This document shows, in pieces, positions 1-26,065 of a stretch of 26,065 nucleotides of DNA. The position numbers and the translations under genes were made by a program. This DNA is from a virus, in the IMG/VR virus record IMGVR_UViG_3300047552_002587, positions 1-26,065 of that record; one strand, given 5' to 3'. The notes beneath the pieces were generated by a model, which saw only the letters and a list, made by a program, of their open reading frames with translations, was not told the origin of the DNA and did no database searches. Every line of letters begins with the position of its first letter. Within the stretch, counting starts at the first letter, position 1.

Positions 1-120
1 GGAGAGGGAGAGGGAGAGGGTGGACACGTCCGCTGTGTCGAAGGGGAGAGGGGAGCAGAGGGAAGGGGAAGGGTTAGGTGAAGGGTGGCTGGGGTTAGTT
101 GTGGGAGAGAGAGAGGGTTT
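1..120 (-). terminator. Candidate Rho-dependent terminator after the minus-strand operon
   Basis: RNA read leftward past the fibre gene stop would be C-rich, nearly free of G and full of YC dinucleotides, which is what a Rho utilisation site looks like. Across the 127-bp repeat I count 67 C and 8 G on the transcript strand, and six of the eight G lie in the 20-nt core. There is no GC-rich stem followed by a U-run, so an intrinsic terminator is unlikely. This role is inferred from composition and position only. Confidence 0.35.
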
Positions 121-127
121 TTAGAAA
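1..127. repeat. Left terminal inverted repeat, 127 bp, perfect
   Basis: Positions 1-127 are the exact reverse complement of 25939-26065; I compared the two ends block by block, and the first mismatch inward is position 128 (A, where the other copy would give G). The plus strand here is almost pure purine: three GGAGAG hexamers at 1-18, then a mixed core at 21-40 that can form a GACAC/GTGTC hairpin (23-27 with 35-39), then G-tracts at 43-46, 50-53, 60-62, 65-68 and 71-73 that fit a G-quadruplex pattern. The inner 7 bases include the stop codon of the fibre gene. The outer edge coincides with the window edge, so the repeat may be longer in the real molecule. Confidence 0.97.
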
Positions 128-1239
128 AGGTTTGAGACGTATTCTACTGTAAAAGGTTTTAGATCCCCTGCAATTGTCATATCATTAACTGTTGCTACAT
201 TTGAAGATACGTTTAAATACATTGCTAGTTTTACAGCTGTGGTTATCTTCTTACTTGCATAACCTGACTTTGCTAAGACATTCCCAGCAGGTTCATTATT
301 AGACTGTATCCTCAAAAGCAGTTCGTCATAAGCAAAAGTGTTATTTGCAGTGGATAGCCCTACAATTATAGATATAGCTGATGCAGATGTTGAAGTATTA
401 TAGCACCGAAAGTTAGGTATTTTTAAGTTCACATCCCAGCTGCCTACAGGGAGAGATATTACAGATAATAGGTTGTAGATAATGTTTATAACAATTCCAG
501 AAGCTGCTGTTTTTGTGTAGCTTGTGTTGTAGGAGGCTCTGTAGACCCATTTAGCAGCATCTGCGGGGAAACCAATAGGGAATTTAACATCTGAGTAATA
601 AGGGGAAGAGATTGCAGCATTTACTAAGGTGTAATCTGTTCCGCCGAATACAGTTATTACAGTTTCTACCCCATTATAAGCACCTACTAGAGTTACAATA
701 AAGTATTTAACAGTTGCAGATTGTGTGAGCTTTATTCTGAAACCTACTCCTATTACATTTGTCACATCCCCAGGGATTTTTATAGTAGCTGAGGGAGAGT
801 CTGTAGCCTCAAAAGTCCAAATACCTCCAGTAGTTTTCCAACTGGAAGTGGTAGAAGTTTGTACAGCCCAGTTTGCAGCAGTTTGCCCTGGGGAGTTGGC
901 AAGAGCTCTTACAGTTGAGTTGACAGGATAGTCTGTTAAAGCTCCAGAAGTTGCAGGTATTGAGATAGTCCAAATATCGCCTTTGAGGATAGCCCCTCCT
1001 GCCCCAGAACCGCCAGTTGTAGGGAATAAGTTTGTAGAAGCATCGAAGTTACCTCTGTCATCCCAGAGACCTACGACTAAGTTGTCGGCATAAGCGTTGG
1101 AGGCTGTAAGGTTTGCAACGAGTTCATCAGCTACACTGGTGAAGTTATCGTTTATTTTGCCAGCAGCATCATAAGCGGTATCTCCAGTGCCATCATTTGG
1201 AACTGTACCTCTGTTTATTGGGGTTATTGTTAAGGTCAT
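121..1239 (-). CDS. Tail fibre / tip-distal structural protein
   Basis: Encodes 372 aa. The N-terminus (about residues 9-33) carries the pattern RGTVPNDGTGDTAYDAAGKI followed by NDNF, a short adaptor motif that recurs at the start of many phage fibre proteins and probably anchors the fibre to the tail tip. The rest is rich in Ser, Thr, Asn, Gly and aromatic residues with no enzymatic motif, typical of beta-structured fibre domains. Its ATG overlaps the stop of the upstream tip-protein gene (ATGA), so it is translationally coupled as the last gene of the late operon. The stop codon lies inside the terminal inverted repeat. The fibre role rests on the N-terminal motif and position; receptor specificity cannot be read from the sequence. 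Confidence 0.7.
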   Translation of the reverse strand: MTLTITPINRGTVPNDGTGDTAYDAAGKINDNFTSVADELVANLTASNAYADNLVVGLWDDRGNFDASTNLFPTTGGSGAGGAILKGDIWTISIPATSGALTDYPVNSTVRALANSPGQTAANWAVQTSTTSSWKTTGGIWTFEATDSPSATIKIPGDVTNVIGVGFRIKLTQSATVKYFIVTLVGAYNGVETVITVFGGTDYTLVNAAISSPYYSDVKFPIGFPADAAKWVYRASYNTSYTKTAASGIVINIIYNLLSVISLPVGSWDVNLKIPNFRCYNTSTSASAISIIVGLSTANNTFAYDELLLRIQSNNEPAGNVLAKSGYASKKITTAVKLAMYLNVSSNVATVNDMTIAGDLKPFTVEYVSNLF

Positions 1240-3461
1240 AAGTCGTTATCCATAGTTGTAGTGGAGGAATCAAAAGTCCAGATACCATCAAAAGTTCTTG
1301 CAGGGCTTCCTGCGGATGAGGTAAAGTTATGGATGACTTTTTGAAAGCAGTCACCGTTTGAGTTTGTAGACTTTACTTCTAACCTGCCGTGAGTTGTGAA
1401 GGTATGTGCTGGGATGTATAAAGTGCAAGAAGTTGTAAATGTTTCTAAAGTTGCGATAAGTATAGTGTCGTCGTAGAGAGAGACTGTGTAGAGGATTCCA
1501 GCTTCAGAAGTTACACTATCTGTGTAGTATGAAAAAGGTTCAGCTGTTTGTAGGTAGCGATTTCTATGCGCCCAGTTTAGGGAGATGGTTGTCGCAGGTC
1601 TTTCAGGAGTCCAGTAAGAACCTTCTATTAGTAAATTACCTGGTGGGTAAGGTAAGTGCATTCTTCCTGAAAGGGTTATTGTATTTACAGGAGCTGAGGC
1701 AAGAGGTAAAGTTCCTTGAGAGGTTACGGTTAAGTTTTTAACTGAAACAATATCTCCAGCGAAGTATTTAGTTCTGTCAAGCCCTTGGAAATCTTCAATA
1801 CCTGCGAAGGTAGTGCCTATGGGGTGGATTTCAGGTACAGTGTCTAAGATTCCTCGCTTTACTTCAATTGTTTTTAGCGCAGTGTCTATGGAGGAAACAT
1901 GGACGAGTTCATCCCCTAGGGCTGCGAAAGAGCCGATTGTTAAAGAGCTTATATCTTCAACAGTGTTTATGTGTAAGGTTGTTGAAATTCTGTCAACTGC
2001 GGAGGTTAATTCAGCCCAATAAGAGAAATCTGTAGTACCGTTTTTTGCGTATGTAGAACCTAGAGTTGACCATAGTTCAGCTTCTATACTTGCAGGTGTT
2101 GGGGATTTAGCTGCTACGATATAGCCAGTTTCCATCGGTAGTACAGCTTGAGCCTCAGCATCCCCTTGCCAGATAGCTACAGCGTAATAAGGGACTTCAT
2201 AAAGTCTGAGGGAGTTTATAGGAACTGGAGGTGCTGTAGTAGGTTTCCAACGAGTTTCTTCATAGTCATATCCTGGGATGTCTGAGAACACTACAGGAGC
2301 AATGTTGAAGAAGTCTTCTATGAAATCGATTGCAATTGCTTCATCTTTAGCAGTTCCAAAGTTTATATTCTTAACCCTGAAGTATTTTTTAGAAGTTCCG
2401 AAGGCTTCAGGTAGTTCGAGAGAGAACATATCCCCAGGGTTTAAGATTTCAGCTTCTCGTGAGCATAGAAGCGAACCTGAGAATACGGGTAGTCCTAATT
2501 GCTGTAAATCTCGGTCGCCGATTATCTTTGCAACTCTTTGTGTGGAGATTCCTGAGTAGTTTATTGTTTGTAAAACTGAACCGCCCTGACGCGCGATAAG
2601 GGATATGTTCTTTGCAGTGTAAGAAGCTTTGTCGTAAGTACCGTTGTTTTCGTAGTTTATTTGAATCTCTGAGACTAAGTCAGTTAGAGATTTTCTGGAA
2701 AGGTTTTGGATTGTAACTAAGTTGTCTTCGTTTACTTGAAAAGTGCTGGCATCAGGAGTTTCATAGCGGATAAGTTTTATCATCCATAGACCTGTAAAAC
2801 GGTCTCGGTATATAGAGGCTTGGATATGTTTGGAAACTTCCTGAATGAAATCTTCGATAGAGGATTCTTTATCCCACAGGAAGGAGAAGCCTAGACCCTC
2901 TTCATGGCAGGTGTAAGCGGCACTTTCCCAAGAAGCTGTATCGATGGAGACTTCAGGTTCCCCTAAACCCCATTCGTCGTCAGTTAGACATTCTCGTAAA
3001 ACATGAACAGCATTTATTTCATTTGCAATTGGTGACATCTTTGCTGGATACCATTGAGGGGTTCCTCTGGAGCGTTTGGATATACGAGTCAGGGCAAATT
3101 CCCAGGGTTTCATGTAATAGTTTAACCCGATGTACATTTGTTGCAGGATGGCAGAGGTTATTCCTCGATAAGCTGGTATTGCTTCACCGATGCAGGATTG
3201 TAAGTATGCAGAAGGGGTTTGGCTGGGTGAACCGAATTGAGTTTCAAGATTCCCTGTTATGCCACCTTCGCGAGAAGTTCCTCCGAAAAGGTCAGGGCGG
3301 TTTATGTAGGTAAGACCATCTGCTGTAATTGGAGCATCTAAGAGTTCCTTTGTGTCTACGCGAATGGATAGAATAGCATCAGCGATGCCACTGCATATCA
3401 CGAAGTGCATACCGACATAGTAAGTAGATACTTTAACCTGATTGGATTTTTTTCTACTCAT
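1236..3461 (-). CDS. Tail tip / central fibre protein (Phage-tail_3, D3112-like)
   Basis: Encodes 741 aa. The N-terminal half reads like the conserved tail-tip protein of D3112-like phages and gene transfer agents: YVGMHFVICSGIADAILSIR near the start, then LFGGTSREGG, PWEFALTRI, a Trp-Tyr-Pro segment and an AVHVLRECLTDDEWGLG block. These proteins close the tail tube at the baseplate and act like lambda gpJ. The second half (about 400-741) is beta-rich and contains segments such as SSLTIGSFAALGDELVHVSS, consistent with Ig/FN3-like receptor-proximal domains. It overlaps the 87-aa gene upstream and the fibre gene downstream by 4 bases each (ATGA at both junctions). Family assignment is from remembered motifs, not from a search. 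Confidence 0.75.
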   Translation of the reverse strand: MSRKKSNQVKVSTYYVGMHFVICSGIADAILSIRVDTKELLDAPITADGLTYINRPDLFGGTSREGGITGNLETQFGSPSQTPSAYLQSCIGEAIPAYRGITSAILQQMYIGLNYYMKPWEFALTRISKRSRGTPQWYPAKMSPIANEINAVHVLRECLTDDEWGLGEPEVSIDTASWESAAYTCHEEGLGFSFLWDKESSIEDFIQEVSKHIQASIYRDRFTGLWMIKLIRYETPDASTFQVNEDNLVTIQNLSRKSLTDLVSEIQINYENNGTYDKASYTAKNISLIARQGGSVLQTINYSGISTQRVAKIIGDRDLQQLGLPVFSGSLLCSREAEILNPGDMFSLELPEAFGTSKKYFRVKNINFGTAKDEAIAIDFIEDFFNIAPVVFSDIPGYDYEETRWKPTTAPPVPINSLRLYEVPYYAVAIWQGDAEAQAVLPMETGYIVAAKSPTPASIEAELWSTLGSTYAKNGTTDFSYWAELTSAVDRISTTLHINTVEDISSLTIGSFAALGDELVHVSSIDTALKTIEVKRGILDTVPEIHPIGTTFAGIEDFQGLDRTKYFAGDIVSVKNLTVTSQGTLPLASAPVNTITLSGRMHLPYPPGNLLIEGSYWTPERPATTISLNWAHRNRYLQTAEPFSYYTDSVTSEAGILYTVSLYDDTILIATLETFTTSCTLYIPAHTFTTHGRLEVKSTNSNGDCFQKVIHNFTSSAGSPARTFDGIWTFDSSTTTMDNDL

Positions 3462-4692: not shown

Positions 4693-6720
4693 TTAATACA
4701 CCGACAGTGTGTTTGTTGAAGTATTTGGGATATATAATTTCCCATCTGAACCTTCGATTACTTCTCCAGGGAAGGGGGAGGATATACTTCCCATAACTGT
4801 ACCAAGGAGCGGGTTGACAAGCAGGACAATATTATCTCCAGCACAGGAGATTGCTAAGAAGCCACTTGCTAAAGCTGTTATGTAAATAGGGGAATAACCA
4901 AGAGGATAAGTTGCAAGGATTATTCCAGAACTGCGGGATACTTTGGAAAGTGTCTGTGCACTAGGGTTAGTTACCCAGATATAACCATTCATCAGGCATA
5001 CATGTCTTCTGGTCGCTCCAATGTTTAGGGACAGAGGTATTGTCGCTAAAACTTCTAAAGTTGTTGGGAGAATTTTGTATAAAAACGCAGCTCCTACAGC
5101 CCATAGGAATACTCCGTCGAAGTACATTGAGGTTAGACCTGTGTCTACAATTGTAGTTCCTATAGCTTCAACAACACCAGAAAAACTAACTCGGTACATA
5201 CTAAGCTCTGAGGTGTAAGTGAGGATTCCATAAGGGCTGTAAGCAAGCATTATAGGTACACCTGTCATTGGTGCATAACATACATTTACAAGAGTCCCAG
5301 TTTTTGTATATTTCGCAATACCTGGATTTCCAGAATCCCAGTGAAGTTCCCATATAAATGTGCCATCAGAGACAATTCCACCGAAGCGCACACCAGAACC
5401 TGGGTCTTTATGAGGGATTCCAGTTATGATAGGGATTAGAAGTCCAGTGCTTAAGGAATAGGAGTATATAACTCCCTCCCCTTCGATGAAGATATGGTCA
5501 GAGTCTTTAGCCGTCCATATTCCGCCTGTTAAAGGTAGTTGGATTCTCAGGGAATACTTCGGCGGATACAGGGCATTTATATGTTTATTCGAGGTTATTG
5601 CGGTTAGAGCAACTGAACATATTTTTTTATTCTTGTAAGCAAAAGTTATGCTATCACTGTTTAACCTGACAAGGTGTAGAAATTCTACAGTATAGATGTC
5701 AATAATATCTTCTGTCGGAGGGGTATCGATTAGGATATGGTCAGTTGTATAATCAATTGAAGTTATCGCAGATATTTTTAAATAATATTTCCCAGCTTTT
5801 GTTCGCAGAAGTATATATCTATCCGCTGAAGGAAGTTTTGTAGGGTAGGTTACAAGTGTTGTCGCACCTGCAAGAATTGTTGAATCCTTCAAACGAATAT
5901 CTTTAGTTTTTGTAGGAAACCAAAAGAGCTCAGCTCTACCTTTTAAAACAGACAACGTGTCTTTTAAAGTTTTTATCTCTTCTCTTTGCTGGGTGGAGAT
6001 TGTGAAACTGTAATTTTGGCGAGCATAGTTTTCTGCTTTCAGAACTTCGGACAGACCTAGGTCACTAGCAGCCATTTCAAAAGCTTGGGTATATCTGTGT
6101 TCTATCGTTGTTGAGGTTTGCAGGGGTAGGTCTAAGACAGGGTACTCAGCGAAATAGTCTGGAATTACTGGGAAAATTGTAGGGGCATATCTGTAAAACC
6201 CTCTGAAAGATAGTTTTGCTGAGAAAGAACTACCAGAGGAATCAGAAAAGGAAACCCCTTCTGTGAGGAATCCTTTTACCAGAGGGATAAGCCAAGCTTT
6301 TGCAAAATCTCTACTCACAGGAGCTGTTAAAGTGAATATGGTGTCCGAAACCCCAGCTATAGTTACAACTTCCCAATTAGCAGGGCTTTCAAAGAGGAGA
6401 AAAGTTTTCTCTTCCGCAGGGTATTCTATGGAGGAAAGTATACAGGATATTGAAGAAACCCCAGCGGTAATTGCTGGAAAAAGAGCATACAAATGCCACA
6501 GAGGTAAGTAGAAGGTGTCTAATCCAATTCTCTCTGCTAAAGCTTTTGCATAAGCAAATTCCTCCGCTGAACGGAAGTTGAAAGTATAGTTTGCATAATA
6601 TACAGGCTGCTCTTTGTAGGATTCTAAACTTTCTGAATTTCTACAGCCGATAACAGTCGTCCCCCATTCAAAAACTTCTTCAAAAGTTGTCAGAGGAGCT
6701 ATTGCGAATACATCTGTCAT
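4693..6720 (-). CDS. Distal-tail-like protein with duplicated N-terminal domain fused to a seven-bladed beta-propeller
   Basis: Encodes 675 aa. The first ~380 residues hold two copies of one fold-like unit: residues 43-75 (YTFNFRSAEEFAYAKALAER...LPLW) and 235-275 (YSFTISTQQREEIKTLKDTL...LFWFPT) match in pattern, and each is followed by similar beta-rich stretches (to about 180 and 378). An aromatic-Phe-x-Pro ending of this kind is common in hub proteins encoded right after the tape measure, in the slot of DUF2460 in gene transfer agents. Residues ~385-675 look like a beta-propeller: seven roughly spaced hydrophobic strands include FIWELHW, FLWAVGA, YIWVTNP, FLAISCA and KLYIPNT. The gene overlaps the tape measure gene by 4 bases (ATGA). 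The propeller is presumably exposed and could bind a surface ligand. Confidence 0.65.
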   Translation of the reverse strand: MTDVFAIAPLTTFEEVFEWGTTVIGCRNSESLESYKEQPVYYANYTFNFRSAEEFAYAKALAERIGLDTFYLPLWHLYALFPAITAGVSSISCILSSIEYPAEEKTFLLFESPANWEVVTIAGVSDTIFTLTAPVSRDFAKAWLIPLVKGFLTEGVSFSDSSGSSFSAKLSFRGFYRYAPTIFPVIPDYFAEYPVLDLPLQTSTTIEHRYTQAFEMAASDLGLSEVLKAENYARQNYSFTISTQQREEIKTLKDTLSVLKGRAELFWFPTKTKDIRLKDSTILAGATTLVTYPTKLPSADRYILLRTKAGKYYLKISAITSIDYTTDHILIDTPPTEDIIDIYTVEFLHLVRLNSDSITFAYKNKKICSVALTAITSNKHINALYPPKYSLRIQLPLTGGIWTAKDSDHIFIEGEGVIYSYSLSTGLLIPIITGIPHKDPGSGVRFGGIVSDGTFIWELHWDSGNPGIAKYTKTGTLVNVCYAPMTGVPIMLAYSPYGILTYTSELSMYRVSFSGVVEAIGTTIVDTGLTSMYFDGVFLWAVGAAFLYKILPTTLEVLATIPLSLNIGATRRHVCLMNGYIWVTNPSAQTLSKVSRSSGIILATYPLGYSPIYITALASGFLAISCAGDNIVLLVNPLLGTVMGSISSPFPGEVIEGSDGKLYIPNTSTNTLSVY

Positions 6721-9700
6721 ATCAAAGACTCCGAATTTCTAGTCATGTGGTTTACTATTATCGACTCACCTTCAGTAGAAGTCAAATATTTTCTAAAATC
6801 ATCCCCATAACCTACGTTTACTATTTTTACAGCTTTACCAGAACTGTTGGAAATGTTGTTAATAGTTTGCATAAGTTGTTTGTTTTGCCCAGGTGCTAAA
6901 ACTCTTTCCCCTTTGGTGAGTTTGTAGGTGGCATTTTCAGGAACATATTCTAAACCTCCGTGAGCCTGAGGCATTGGTTGGGAAACAATTTGGGCAATCT
7001 GTGCAGCTCCCATTGCAGCGGCTAGACCAGCTAGGATTGTACCCATAGGAGGAGGAACTTCCATAGCTGCCATTACTGCAACTGCGGTTGACATTATTAC
7101 CTTAGCAGTTGCGTTAGCTTTATAGAGGGCAAAAGCTATCCTCGCCTGTTCGCTTTCTGCACCGTACATCTTAATCATACTTTCGGTGATTCCTGAGAAA
7201 GCATCTGCGGCAAGTCCAGCGATACCTGAATAGTAATTTGCGTTTAACATTGAACCCGCAGTTGCGTATTTTTCCCGTATGCGCAAAATCTCTTGCTGTT
7301 TCGCTTCTTCCGCCAGAACACTTTTAGAGGCAATATCTAATTCCTGAGCAAGACCTTGGGATAGATTATTCTGGTCTCTTTGATATTGCTGGTAATCATT
7401 AGGTATCTGAGATTGGATATAGTTATTAGCAGCTCCAGCGTTTGGATACCTTACTTGTGACAACTGCATCCTAGCTTCTTTAGCTTTTAAAGCTTTCTGA
7501 GGATTTCCCTCAAGTTCAGCAGCTTTTTCCAACACCACCACATATCTCTCAGCTTCTTCAGTATAAGCTTTTCTAGCTTCAGTTAGTTGAGCAATTGCTT
7601 GTTGTTCAGAGATATAACCTGTTGCTTTAAGATTAGCAATTTCCTGCTCACGCATTTGGAAAGCTTCTCTGGCTATACTTTGCTTAGCCTCCAGGTCAAT
7701 TGTTTTCGCTTGCTCAAGTTGTAAACTTCTACGAGTTTTTAAAAGTTCTAAAGCTTTTGTGTTTTCAGGAATTCCTTTCTCTTTATCTGCGAGCAGGGAT
7801 TTGCGTTCTCTTAGATATGCAACTTCAATTTGAGCTTCAGCAGATGCCTGTTTGCCACCACGAAGTCCGTCAATTTGTGCATTGAGTTCTTCGATTTTCT
7901 GGGCGAAAGCTTCTTCTTGAGCTATGCGTTTATCTGTCAGGTCTTTTTGTAAAGTTGCTTGGGCTAAGGCATAAGAGGATTGGATTGTCGCAGTTTTACC
8001 TGATTCTTCTCTGACCCTGACCTCACTTTCCATAGTTGCTTGGGTGTATTTATCAAGCAGGTCTCCTGTTTTTCCTTTCTCGTCGTAATATTTGAGAACT
8101 GTAGGGACATAATCTCTGGTTTCTTTTGTCAAACCTGAGAGGAAATTCTCTCCAAAAGATTTCACAGCTTTATCCACAGCCCAAGGACCAGCGTTATAAG
8201 CTGCTAAAACTTTAGGTATATTTCCATTATACCTGTCCATAAGTTGAGCAAAATACTGTTTAGAAGATTCTAAAAGAGCAGCTTGGTTAGCATCCACAAA
8301 CTCTACCAGAGGTCTTTTTATAGCTTCTGGAAGGGTGTAGTATTTCTTAGCCTTATTCCCTTTATTTGCAGCGTCTTGAAAAGCTTTGGCAGAAATTTCT
8401 AAAGCAAGAATATCCTGTGGAATCGGCATAAAAGCTTTAGCTGTAGAAGGCATAATCTGCCCCAACCCTAAAGCCCCTACAGGAGACACTTGTGATTTCT
8501 TAAACTGAGATTCATGCTTCATAACAGCGGCGAACAGCTTATCATTATCCGTAATCTGCTCACCGATTTGTTTACTTACAAGTTTAGCACCTTCGGATTG
8601 TACTTTTTGCAGCTCCAGCTCAAGTCGTATCTTCTCCGTCTGCATTTTAACATCCATGTCATGTTTTACAGCTAAGAGTTTGGAGTTTATAATCCCCTGC
8701 TCAGCGGAACTCTTTGCACTAAGTAGTTGTGTTTTGAGTAAATTCTCCTGAGTCGCTGCTTCCTCTCTGATAGCAGATTGTTTTTCCTGAGAAGCTGCTT
8801 GCACTGCTTTGGTAGAGTCATCTAGGAGTTTTGTTTGAAATTCAAACTGTCTTTGCGACATTCCTAGTTGTTCGTCAGTTATAACCTTAGCGGTTTCTTG
8901 CTCCATTTTAGCTTCAGTGTCGAGCAAGTCTTTCCTAGCAACAGCTCTGGATTCTAAATATTTCTTAAAAAGAAAAGCTTCATTTTCCTGGGAGTTTGTT
9001 AGGTTTACATTAAGGTCTTTTAATGCAGCTTTAGCAGCTTCTACAGCTGGGGAAAACCCGCCTACACCTACGTTTAGAATTTTGTTATTAACAACATCCT
9101 GAGCTAAAGCTATACGCTCTTGAATGTCCAAAGTCTGCTGTGCAGCTTCATTGTACATTTTTTGAGCTTCAATAACTTTCTCAGATTTGGATATGTCAAA
9201 ATTAACCTGAGCCTCTGGGGAACTCTTAGCACCCGCCGCCGCAGTTTCAGCATCTTGAATATCTTTAACATTCTTAGCAATTCGCTCTGCGGTTTCTTGA
9301 ATTTGTTGCCACTTGACATATACCGCAGATGCAGCTGCTAGGAGAGCAACCAAACCAATCCCTACGCTATTCGCAGCGATAAAAGAGCCTACGCCTTTGA
9401 GAGTAGTGCTTAGAGTTGTAGCAGCTGCATTGAAAAACCCCAATCTCTGCACAACTTCCAAAGCCATTAGGGTTTGCATAGATTTTACTAAATACAACAC
9501 CCCTGCACTGCCAGCAAGAGCTACGATAGTCGCTTTAACAGTTGTCAAACTCTTATCTAAACTATCACCTTCTTCGATGAAAAGTCTGAACTGTTCCAAA
9601 CTTCCTGTAACCCATTTGGTAATGTCTATCAGCATTGTTGAGGTAGATTTGTAACCAGCTTCACTTAGAAGTTCCCAAGAGGTGGACAACCTGCCAAGAC

Positions 9701-23152: not shown

Positions 23153-23223
23153 TATTGACTCTCTATATATAAGGTATAAAATCTACTTTACAATGAATTT
23201 TCACCAAAAACAAGGGGATGATT
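23153..23223. promoter_or_regulatory. Divergent intergenic region with candidate promoters for both operons
   Basis: This 71-bp AT-rich spacer is the only place from which both operons can start. For the plus operon a candidate is TTGACT (23155-23160), 16 bases, TAAAAT (23177-23182). For the minus operon a candidate is TTGTAA (23193-23188), 16 bases, TATATA (23171-23166). The two overlap, so firing of one would hinder the other. No clear operator palindrome is visible beyond the TATATA run. AT-rich sequence gives such matches by chance, so the position is better supported than the exact boxes. Confidence 0.4.
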
Positions 23224-23595
23224 ATGGAAGAAACTGGATTAAACGTTGTAAAAGATATAGCAAATCTAGGTGCAGTCGGCTCTCTGTTAATCCTATCTTG
23301 CTATGGACTGTACAAAGGAATACTTTACATCATCGGGTATTCCAAAGAACGAATGACTCAGGTAGAAACTTTGACAAAAGAACACGCTGAAGCTATTGAT
23401 AAAATCCACAAAGAGTATCAAGAGCAGCTCCGTACTACCGCAGAAACCTTTAACAAAGAACGGGCAGACTTACTATCCTCTTGGAATGCTGAGAGAAAAG
23501 AATCTCTAGTCGCTCTGAACAACTTAACCCAAACCGTCCAGAAAATGTATGACCTCGTAGAAAAGCGCGACGGTAACATTGAAAGACATTCTTAA
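23224..23595 (+). CDS. Membrane protein with long coiled coil; holin- or spanin-like candidate
   Basis: Encodes 123 aa from the ATG at 23224, chosen because AAGGGG (23212-23217) lies 6 bases upstream; the earlier ATG at 23218 abuts that sequence and cannot use it. The protein has one transmembrane segment at about residues 15-38 (GAVGSLLILSCYGLYKGILY) and then ~75 charged residues forming a coiled coil (KEHAEAIDKIHKEYQEQLRT). One helix plus coiled coil is seen in inner-membrane spanins and in some holin-associated phage proteins; no partner outer-membrane lipoprotein or endolysin is present. It starts the plus-strand operon. The function is open. Confidence 0.6.
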   Translation: MEETGLNVVKDIANLGAVGSLLILSCYGLYKGILYIIGYSKERMTQVETLTKEHAEAIDKIHKEYQEQLRTTAETFNKERADLLSSWNAERKESLVALNNLTQTVQKMYDLVEKRDGNIERHS

Positions 23596-23618: not shown

Positions 23619-23921
23619 ATGAACTGCATTCACATTCACACCTCCCCCCTGCATCGCGGAAACCTTGCAATCCCTGTTGCTATGCAATTTGATGAACCTC
23701 TGAACCTATTCCTAACCCCAGATTCAGACGACAATCCTCAAAATCAAACATCGTCTTTGGTTCAGGTAATTGCGCCCGCTGACGTTATAACAGGCATCCG
23801 TAGAAATTCATCTGAAATCCTCTTTACAGGTTTCAGCCCTACAAATATTATCCTCGCCCCAGGTGATTCTTTGCTAACTACAGCTGTATCTGGTGACCTT
23901 TACTTCTTGCCCCTTTGGTAA
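23619..23921 (+). CDS. Small beta-rich protein, 100 aa, unknown
   Basis: A 100-aa protein starting MNCIHIHTSPLHRGNLAIPV, with AGGA 8 bases before the ATG. It is rich in Pro, Asn, Thr and beta-branched residues and ends in a run of short beta strands (SSEILFTGFSPTNIILAPGD then LYFLPLW). No signal peptide or membrane segment is seen. The ending resembles the style of small phage beta-sandwich domains, like the one in the next gene. As it sits in an operon ending with a surface beta-propeller protein, a virion component or fibre accessory is a reasonable guess, but I do not recognise the family. Confidence 0.6.
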   Translation: MNCIHIHTSPLHRGNLAIPVAMQFDEPLNLFLTPDSDDNPQNQTSSLVQVIAPADVITGIRRNSSEILFTGFSPTNIILAPGDSLLTTAVSGDLYFLPLW

Positions 23922-24411: not shown

Positions 24412-25971
24412 ATGCTAACCCCCAAAGGTCTTAAGAAACGTGAAGTTTTGCCTCCGAGTTTGCGACAAACCCCAGGTAATAAGCATACGACACTTGCAAC
24501 CCCTGGGTATATCTGGGTTACAAACACAGGAACTCAAATGCTAGAACGTATAAACACTACAACTCTTGAAGTTGTTATGTTTGCTTCTGGGGGAGGCACT
24601 CCTGCAGGTATTGCTTTTGATGGAACACATCTCTATGTCTCTCACTTCTCCAGTGGTAATATTACAAAAATGACCACCACTGGTGAAGTGCTTGCCTCTT
24701 ACCAAATTTCCTCTGGCTTGCATCAGATTGTTTTTGACGGGGTAGACCTGTGGGTTACTTCTTACTATGAAGGTAAAATTTACAAACTCTCTACCTCAGG
24801 AACCGTTCTTTTCATTTATGACTCAGGTAGATACCCTGTAGACTTAACAGTTGCTGATAATAAAATATGGGTAGGTTTATTCAACTTCACCTTCTACCCT
24901 TTTGGTGCTGGAGGACTTTTAAAACTTAACAACAATGGAACTTTAAACGCTGAATACCCAATCGTGGAAAACCCTTTAGGTATAGACTTCGGGGACAATC
25001 ATATCTGGACAGCAAACTTCCTAACAGGTGATGTTTTTAAAGTAAATGCCTCAAATGGAACTGTAGTTTTAACATTTAACACAGGAATTCCAGACTCTGC
25101 AATCCTACACCTTTCATACTCAACTTATGGCAATTATATCCTGATAACAATTTCAAAAGACTATTCCTCCTACAACCTTCCAAACAGTGAAAATGTAGTT
25201 CAAATACGTTCAGCTGCTACAGGTGCTCTTATAGAAACTGTACCAGTTGGTATAGACCCTAGAAATGTAAGCATCGATGAGTTCCACTGGGGTTATGTCG
25301 CAGGTTATGGAGACGGTACTGTTACTAGATTCCCTCTCCCAGCACCTGGAGTATCCTATGACATATTTCTACATTTCGATACTTTCCCGTTCACCAACAG
25401 CGGCGACTTACCTGTAACAATAACTGCCCCAGAGACGCGCTTTACTTCAGACCCTGCTAGAGTTATTGAAGGTTCAGGTTCTGCCATATCAAACAGAGGT
25501 AGTGGAAATCTTGACCAAGAGACTATACAGGTTTTCTCAACTGACGCTATAACCCTTGGTGACCAGTGGACAATTCGCTTTAAAGCTACTATAAATGCTC
25601 CTACAATGGGGGTAGGTATCTTAACCCCTTGGACAGGTTCTGCAATAGAAAGCGTCTCTATAATCTCCGCAGCTTCTCTTTATGTAATGCAATTCACCGC
25701 TGCTATTGCTGTACCAATAACACCAGGAATTCCTCAATTATTCTCAATAGAGCTTTTTGAGGGAAGTCTTTATATCTATCTGGATGGTGTACTTAAAGGA
25801 ACTCAGTTATACAACGACCCTCTCTCAGGTTTGCCAATACCTCCTATGACATTATCAGGCGGTTCTCGACTGTTTTCTATCGGCGGTACAGGTAATGACA
25901 TAGCTGAGAACCAGCAAACAATTATAGATGAGCTTATCTTTCTAAAAACCCTCTCTCTCTCCCACAACTAA
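24412..25971 (+). CDS. Seven-bladed beta-propeller plus concanavalin-like domain; candidate fibre/adhesin
   Basis: Encodes 519 aa; the ATG at 24412 is preceded by AGGAG with 8-base spacing, and an open frame further upstream is out-of-frame overlap with the previous gene. Residues ~30-310 show seven repeats, each with an inner strand: IWVTN (34), LYVSH (74), LWVTS (113), IWVGL (152), IWTAN (198), ILITI (243) and WGYVAGY (293), as in YncE/NHL-type propellers. Residues ~315-519 look like a LamG/concanavalin-type jelly roll (DIFLHFDTFPF, WTIRFKATINAP, SLYIYLDGVLKG, TIIDELIFLK). Both folds bind sugars or surface ligands, so host attachment is likely. The last 11 codons lie inside the terminal inverted repeat. 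Confidence 0.7.
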   Translation: MLTPKGLKKREVLPPSLRQTPGNKHTTLATPGYIWVTNTGTQMLERINTTTLEVVMFASGGGTPAGIAFDGTHLYVSHFSSGNITKMTTTGEVLASYQISSGLHQIVFDGVDLWVTSYYEGKIYKLSTSGTVLFIYDSGRYPVDLTVADNKIWVGLFNFTFYPFGAGGLLKLNNNGTLNAEYPIVENPLGIDFGDNHIWTANFLTGDVFKVNASNGTVVLTFNTGIPDSAILHLSYSTYGNYILITISKDYSSYNLPNSENVVQIRSAATGALIETVPVGIDPRNVSIDEFHWGYVAGYGDGTVTRFPLPAPGVSYDIFLHFDTFPFTNSGDLPVTITAPETRFTSDPARVIEGSGSAISNRGSGNLDQETIQVFSTDAITLGDQWTIRFKATINAPTMGVGILTPWTGSAIESVSIISAASLYVMQFTAAIAVPITPGIPQLFSIELFEGSLYIYLDGVLKGTQLYNDPLSGLPIPPMTLSGGSRLFSIGGTGNDIAENQQTIIDELIFLKTLSLSHN

Positions 25972-26065
25972 CCCCAGCCACCCTTCACCTAACCCTTCCC
26001 CTTCCCTCTGCTCCCCTCTCCCCTTCGACACAGCGGACGTGTCCACCCTCTCCCTCTCCCTCTCC
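25939..26065. repeat. Right terminal inverted repeat, 127 bp, perfect
   Basis: Exact reverse complement of positions 1-127, so here the plus strand is C/T-rich. The inner 33 bases encode the last ten residues and stop of the propeller gene, in a different frame from the one the fibre gene uses at the left end; the DNA is therefore conserved independently of the protein it encodes. The G-tracts lie on the minus strand. The core GACACAGCGGACGTGTC can form a 5-bp hairpin. Confidence 0.97.
25972..26065 (+). terminator. Candidate Rho-dependent terminator after the plus-strand operon
   Basis: The transcript running past the propeller gene would be C-rich and very G-poor, the same composition as at the left end, because the two ends are inverted copies. 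The only secondary structure is a short GACAC/GTGTC stem without a U-run. A Rho loading site is the simplest functional reading, inferred from composition and location alone. Confidence 0.35.

Follow-up and report, generated by a model that had tools for sequence, protein, structure and literature searches.

A phage β-propeller protein with a probable lectin-like domain beside an inverted terminal repeat: a candidate adhesin

Organization of the locus

The window analysed is an IMG/VR phage contig of 26,065 bases. Its minus strand carries a small-terminase-like gene, a GpA-type terminase, the portal, an S49 protease, an E-type capsid protein, neck and tail genes, the tape measure and a tail tip like that of phage JBD30. 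A cassette on the plus strand diverges from the terminase genes, and the gene under study, encoding a protein that we term P0001, is a member of it (Table 1). A reading of the sequence alone had described a plus-strand gene here for a seven-bladed propeller with a concanavalin-like C-terminus, and the gene itself was confirmed exactly as delimited in the table.

Table 1. Genes, domains and repeat arms of the window.
Feature	Position	Strand	Basis
Left arm, perfect inverted terminal repeat	1-127	.	100% complementary to 25939-26065
Left-end tail-fibre-like gene	121-1239	-	T4 gp9/10 N-terminal match 0.0072; phrog_677 6e-5
Baseplate hub / J-like protein	1236-3461	-	8rk3_o 1.5e-76; 8vjh_A 2.6e-77; phrog_1101
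Distal-tail-protein-like gene with C-terminal propeller (P0002)	4693-6720	-	phrog_1082 3.7e-48; residues 69-360 match 8rk3_U (JBD30)
125-aa protein, one hydrophobic segment and coiled coil, holin/spanin-like	23218-23595	+	Inspection
100-aa ORF of the plus-strand cassette	23619-23921	+	ORF only
Partner gene, about 158-161 aa	23924-24400	+	In both relatives a gene 35-37% identical to it immediately precedes the propeller gene
Propeller-lectin gene (P0001), 519 aa	24412-25971	+	ORF; AGGAG 8-9 nt before its ATG; propeller 49-50% identical in the nearest relatives
Seven-bladed YncE/YVTN-type β-propeller, residues ~24-311	24481-25344	+	AlphaFold2, Foldseek, profile match
C-terminal LamG/concanavalin-like domain (probable), residues ~315-519	25354-25968	+	Homology to the domain that closes the left-end gene product in two relatives
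Right arm, inverted terminal repeat	25939-26065	.	Read in frame by the propeller-lectin gene as its final 10 residues (FLKTLSLSHN) and stop codon

The cassette begins with the gene for the protein with the hydrophobic segment and coiled coil. The 100-aa reading frame has no family match, and the gene that we call the partner ends 11 nt before that of P0001. By inspection the C-terminus of the partner protein is small, all-β and decoration-like. Rfam and tRNA scans of the window found nothing, and no replication genes were recognised either in the window or in the related contig G001 introduced below, which does encode an M15 endolysin. The genome of a distant isolate, Marinobacter phage PS3, is 42 kb in size and includes a primase and an integrase.

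The propeller

Residues ~20-311 of P0001 were modelled by AlphaFold2 as a seven-bladed propeller of 27-28 strands, with pLDDT mostly in the range 70-94; the input alignment included the two relatives described below. The model has seven four-stranded blades and a closed ring, and thus predicts a β-propeller of the seven-bladed YncE/YVTN kind. Foldseek matched it to the seven-bladed YncE of E. coli (3vgz, 7seu; TMt 0.74-0.76), the archaeal YVTN surface-layer protein 1l0q and BtuG, with E values of about 1e-10 to 1e-13. A profile of three sequences (A5) matched 1l0q_A with E = 7.4e-12, so that similarity to the family is also seen at the level of profiles. Model, Foldseek matches and profile together bear out the seven-bladed propeller of the sequence-only reading. 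P0001 shares with YncE, 1l0q and BtuG the fold, the number of blades and the YVTN-type strand motif, but it is only 10-18% identical to them in the Foldseek alignments, is encoded by a phage and has an additional C-terminal lectin-like domain. The viral structure models that resemble P0001 include propellers of uncultured caudoviruses and of giant viruses. On inspection the N-terminus does not have the look of a Sec signal, which would suit assembly inside the cell.

A search of a 50,697-record phage collection gave no match to P0001. Among annotated phages there are no sequence relatives of the propeller protein, of its lectin, of the relatives' propeller protein or of the partner protein. 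A scan of GTDB species genomes returned only distant propellers, in bacterial metagenome-assembled genomes and one cultured bacterium, and close relatives sought in IMG/VR by way of the terminase and J yielded the same phage or nothing.

Two related phages

A degenerate search turned up two contigs of siphophages, IMGVR_UViG_3300020045_002124 (G001) and IMGVR_UViG_3300020045_003113 (G006), both from a single further metagenome. These resemble the window in the propeller, in the partner gene lying directly upstream of it and in having inverted repeats at the ends of the contig, and their cassette likewise begins with a gene for a transmembrane/coiled-coil protein. They differ from it in that the C-terminus of the propeller protein is a second propeller in place of the lectin, the lectin is carried instead by the tail gene at the left end, and the tail is lambda-like, with J, I, K and L genes. 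The structural genes of both contigs are rotated relative to those of the window, with the cassette placed before L-K-I-J-fibre-TerL and the left end following the tape measure and a small tail gene. The position of the repeat therefore follows the cassette, and not the usual gene order.

Comparison of these two phages with each other shows where they diverge. In 40-column blocks along the propeller protein the identity is 35, 90, 70, 48, 78 and 72%, and then 90-100%, while the C-terminus of the partner is 26-49% identical. The left-end gene (L015/L041; 31-1317 on the minus strand of G001) is 92-98% identical at its N-terminus and 32-58% in the lectin core, or most variable blocks. Identity is 72-100% (mostly 85-100%) for J, 88-100% for the fibre and 98-100% for TerS. 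In this single pair of phages, the first half of the propeller and the C-terminus of the partner are thus far more variable than J or the fibre, and variation in sequence collects where binding surfaces are proposed below; it could also be mosaicism that involves no selection on binding.

The C-terminal domain

The C-terminal ~200 amino acids of P0001 have no match in Pfam, PF13385 included, and no convincing match in the PDB. The AlphaFold2 model has a pLDDT of 21-36 here, in a region where the alignment contained no relatives, so that a confident fold was not obtained. The region does align over its full length with the domain that closes the left-end tail protein in both G001 and G006. The homology is seen in shuffle z-scores of 5-7, with none of 1000 shuffles scoring as high, and in an hhalign E value of 7e-5 over 45 columns. 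The G006 domain in turn matches Laminin_G_3 (PF13385) with E = 4e-4 and 21 bits, which is under the curated cut-off of 27.6, and provides an intermediate linking the domain in the window to that family. The C-terminus is therefore concanavalin-like by way of its relatives, one copy of which resembles PF13385, and not by any match of its own. We conclude that it is probably a LamG/concanavalin-like lectin, for which a glycan-binding role is plausible.

The inverted terminal repeats

The right arm of the repeat is nearly all pyrimidine and ends in (CCCTCT)n. At the other end of the contig the left-end gene has its stop codon at 121-123, inside the left arm and one codon into the repeat, and is out of frame with respect to the lectin reading. 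A second contig of the window's phage stops at the same base.

G001 and G006 have perfect inverted terminal repeats of 121 bp each, with the same inner boundary. Each contig has two identical arms, and those of G001 are 83-85% identical to those of G006, which points to concerted upkeep. Their left-end tail gene runs through the repeat in frame, which gives the final 28-29 residues of the lectin (TIDEFAYFLSTAL...), and their propeller gene takes its stop codon from the repeat, out of frame. Thus the lectin belongs to the right-end gene in the window and to the left-end gene in both relatives, and in all three contigs the repeat starts at or near the last strand of the lectin.

A hairpin that appeared by eye to be conserved in the repeats is not claimed, as the folding z-scores are -1.1, -2.1 and +1.2. 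The target of a diversity-generating retroelement was also considered and rejected; the repeats are identical and inverted, and are not near-copies differing at adenines, and the window genes that were scanned include no reverse transcriptase.

A candidate host-recognition protein

We propose that P0001 is a host-recognition protein or adhesin of the virion with an exchangeable C-terminal binding domain, and put the probability of this at about 0.58. A rigid seven-bladed propeller of the YncE/YVTN type, made together with the small partner encoded upstream, would carry a replaceable binding domain at its C-terminus. Here this would be the LamG-like lectin, contacting glycans of the host surface during adsorption, and the variable blades 1-4 and the variable C-terminus of the partner would probably enlarge the surface used in recognition. 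The final lectin strand and the 3′ flank lie in an inverted repeat that the terminal gene at the opposite end shares, and binding domains could be replaced upstream of this shared 3′ anchor, at either end. We infer from these features that P0001 is located in the virion and binds glycans, and that recombination is the cause of the exchange.

The adhesin proposal is supported by the propeller model, by the partner-propeller pair that is kept in two phages with a different tail, by the difference in the C-terminal domain, and by the lectins lying at opposite ends beside the repeats. Against it, the gene is oriented divergently from the structural operon, P0001 has no counterpart in the phage collection of 50,697 records, the lectin is recognised indirectly, and the protein has neither the long N-terminal coil nor the trimerisation stem that are usual in fibres. 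Propellers are known in phage tails, and their role in recognition is mostly unproven. In phi11 the receptor-binding protein gp45 has a five-bladed propeller with a putative GlcNAc pocket, a triple-helical stem and a tower, and in PhiKZ gp131C is a seven-bladed propeller at the periphery of the baseplate (PMC4901313). The C-terminal propeller of PhiKZ gp131 and phi11 gp45 are thus propellers in tail-tip or baseplate proteins thought to touch the host, as is proposed for P0001. The link to these two proteins is one of literature and not of sequence, and in contrast to the five-bladed, stemmed gp45, P0001 has no stem.

Next in rank we place a role as a decoration of the head or neck that binds polysaccharide or a mucus-like matrix, and is not a device for adsorption; we regard this as unlikely. 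In the window the cassette adjoins the terminase genes and diverges from them, far from the genes of the tail tip, the partner resembles a small decoration-type β domain by inspection, and the tail tip already has a fibre-like gene of its own at the left end, all of which would suit a decoration. But in G001 and G006 the cassette adjoins the tail genes L-K-I-J and not head genes, and there is no match to a decoration family.

For the adhesin, what makes the finding worth following is the lectin at the opposite end together with the conserved repeats. Across different phage groups the partner gene stays with the propeller and the C-terminal domain is not the same; a lectin domain of like kind belongs to another protein at the opposite end, beside a perfectly kept inverted repeat. 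If the proposal is true, a phage could in this way reshuffle host-recognition domains between two ends. A more specific version, which we consider doubtful, has recognition genes converging on both termini of a phage replicon or genome arm, with the repeats as markers of these termini. Recombination anchored in the repeats would then move the lectin between the left tail protein and the right propeller adhesin, and concerted evolution would keep the repeats identical. In outline this resembles the terminal transposition of viruses that have inverted terminal repeats. The ordinary reading is that a genome arm flanked by the repeats is missing from the contigs. There may otherwise be real ends of a linear genome at the repeats, in contigs whose repeat lengths equal plausible k-mer sizes.

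It is improbable that the repeats are artefacts of assembly and the placement of the lectin at opposite ends a coincidence. The lengths of 127, 121 and 121 bp do resemble k-mer sizes used by assemblers, and are for this reason to be taken as lower limits, and no contig in IMG/VR runs past the repeats. However, G001 and G006 share an inner boundary while their repeats are only 83-85% identical, and the window, which comes from a different phage group, has an equivalent boundary at the final lectin strand. Chimeras joined at random would not fall on homologous points in this way.

The propeller is very unlikely to be an enzyme of the virginiamycin-B-lyase or sugar-cleaving type, with the lectin serving as its carbohydrate-binding module. 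Propellers often carry enzymes, and residues 29-154 gave a partial match to Vgb_lyase (PF24684), but the score of 27.4 bits is far under the curated cut-off of 50 and only half of the profile is covered, so that identity as a Vgb lyase is rejected. Moreover, the only invariant histidines among P0001 and its two relatives are H25 and H104, and no conserved catalytic set was recognised.

The second propeller of the window

The sequence-only reading had noted that a GYIWVTN strand is common to P0001 and to a second propeller encoded in the window, labelled a tail-hub propeller, and suggested either duplication of a propeller module or two recognition proteins sharing a domain. The shared strand exists. 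The label does not fit the gene, since the N-terminal part of its product (P0002) matches 8rk3_U, and the hub-like gene is a different one (Table 1). The chain 8rk3_U is 567 amino acids long and so fits gp49, the distal tail protein of JBD30, in which the polypeptide stops past domain IV at residue 567 (PMC11445458). This protein is related to the N-terminal part of P0002, and not to P0001, and P0002 continues into a C-terminal propeller that gp49 does not have. We take the C-terminus of P0002 to be a propeller on the strength of its repeats and a weak similarity to other propellers, as a structure model of this part by itself had a pLDDT of 43 and was uninformative.

The two propeller genes are related by a BLAST score of 32.7 bits and by an optimal alignment better than 1000 shuffles, so both are propellers of a broad type. 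The resemblance is not a special one. In blade-by-blade comparison the mean z-score is 2.0 between the proteins and 2.2 within P0001, and the circular registers score 1.0-2.8 with none standing out. By BLAST the propeller of P0001 scores 30 bits with that of P0002, whereas four propellers from unrelated viruses give 38-70 bits and a true relative, in another phage, gives 297 bits. Despite the shared strand and the alignment score, a recent duplication of one module is hardly credible, being contradicted both by the blade registers and by the control propellers; the two are alike only in the generic blade pattern. That they are two separate virion proteins each bearing a propeller is plausible, as one is fused to a distal tail protein of the JBD30 type and the other lies in its own cassette.

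Multiple propellers within a contig were also seen elsewhere. IMGVR_UViG_3300014501_000021 has a run of large phage tail-type proteins, each with several propellers of the Vgb/YVTN type, and gave 14 matches to P0001 within the single contig. In IMGVR_UViG_3300025317_000280 near-identical blades (VGTxPxGVAFDGTHIWVAN...) occur in two genes, at 1156-2181 and 7264-8175; these blades were likely amplified recently, and by inspection a GIY-YIG-like gene lies between the two.
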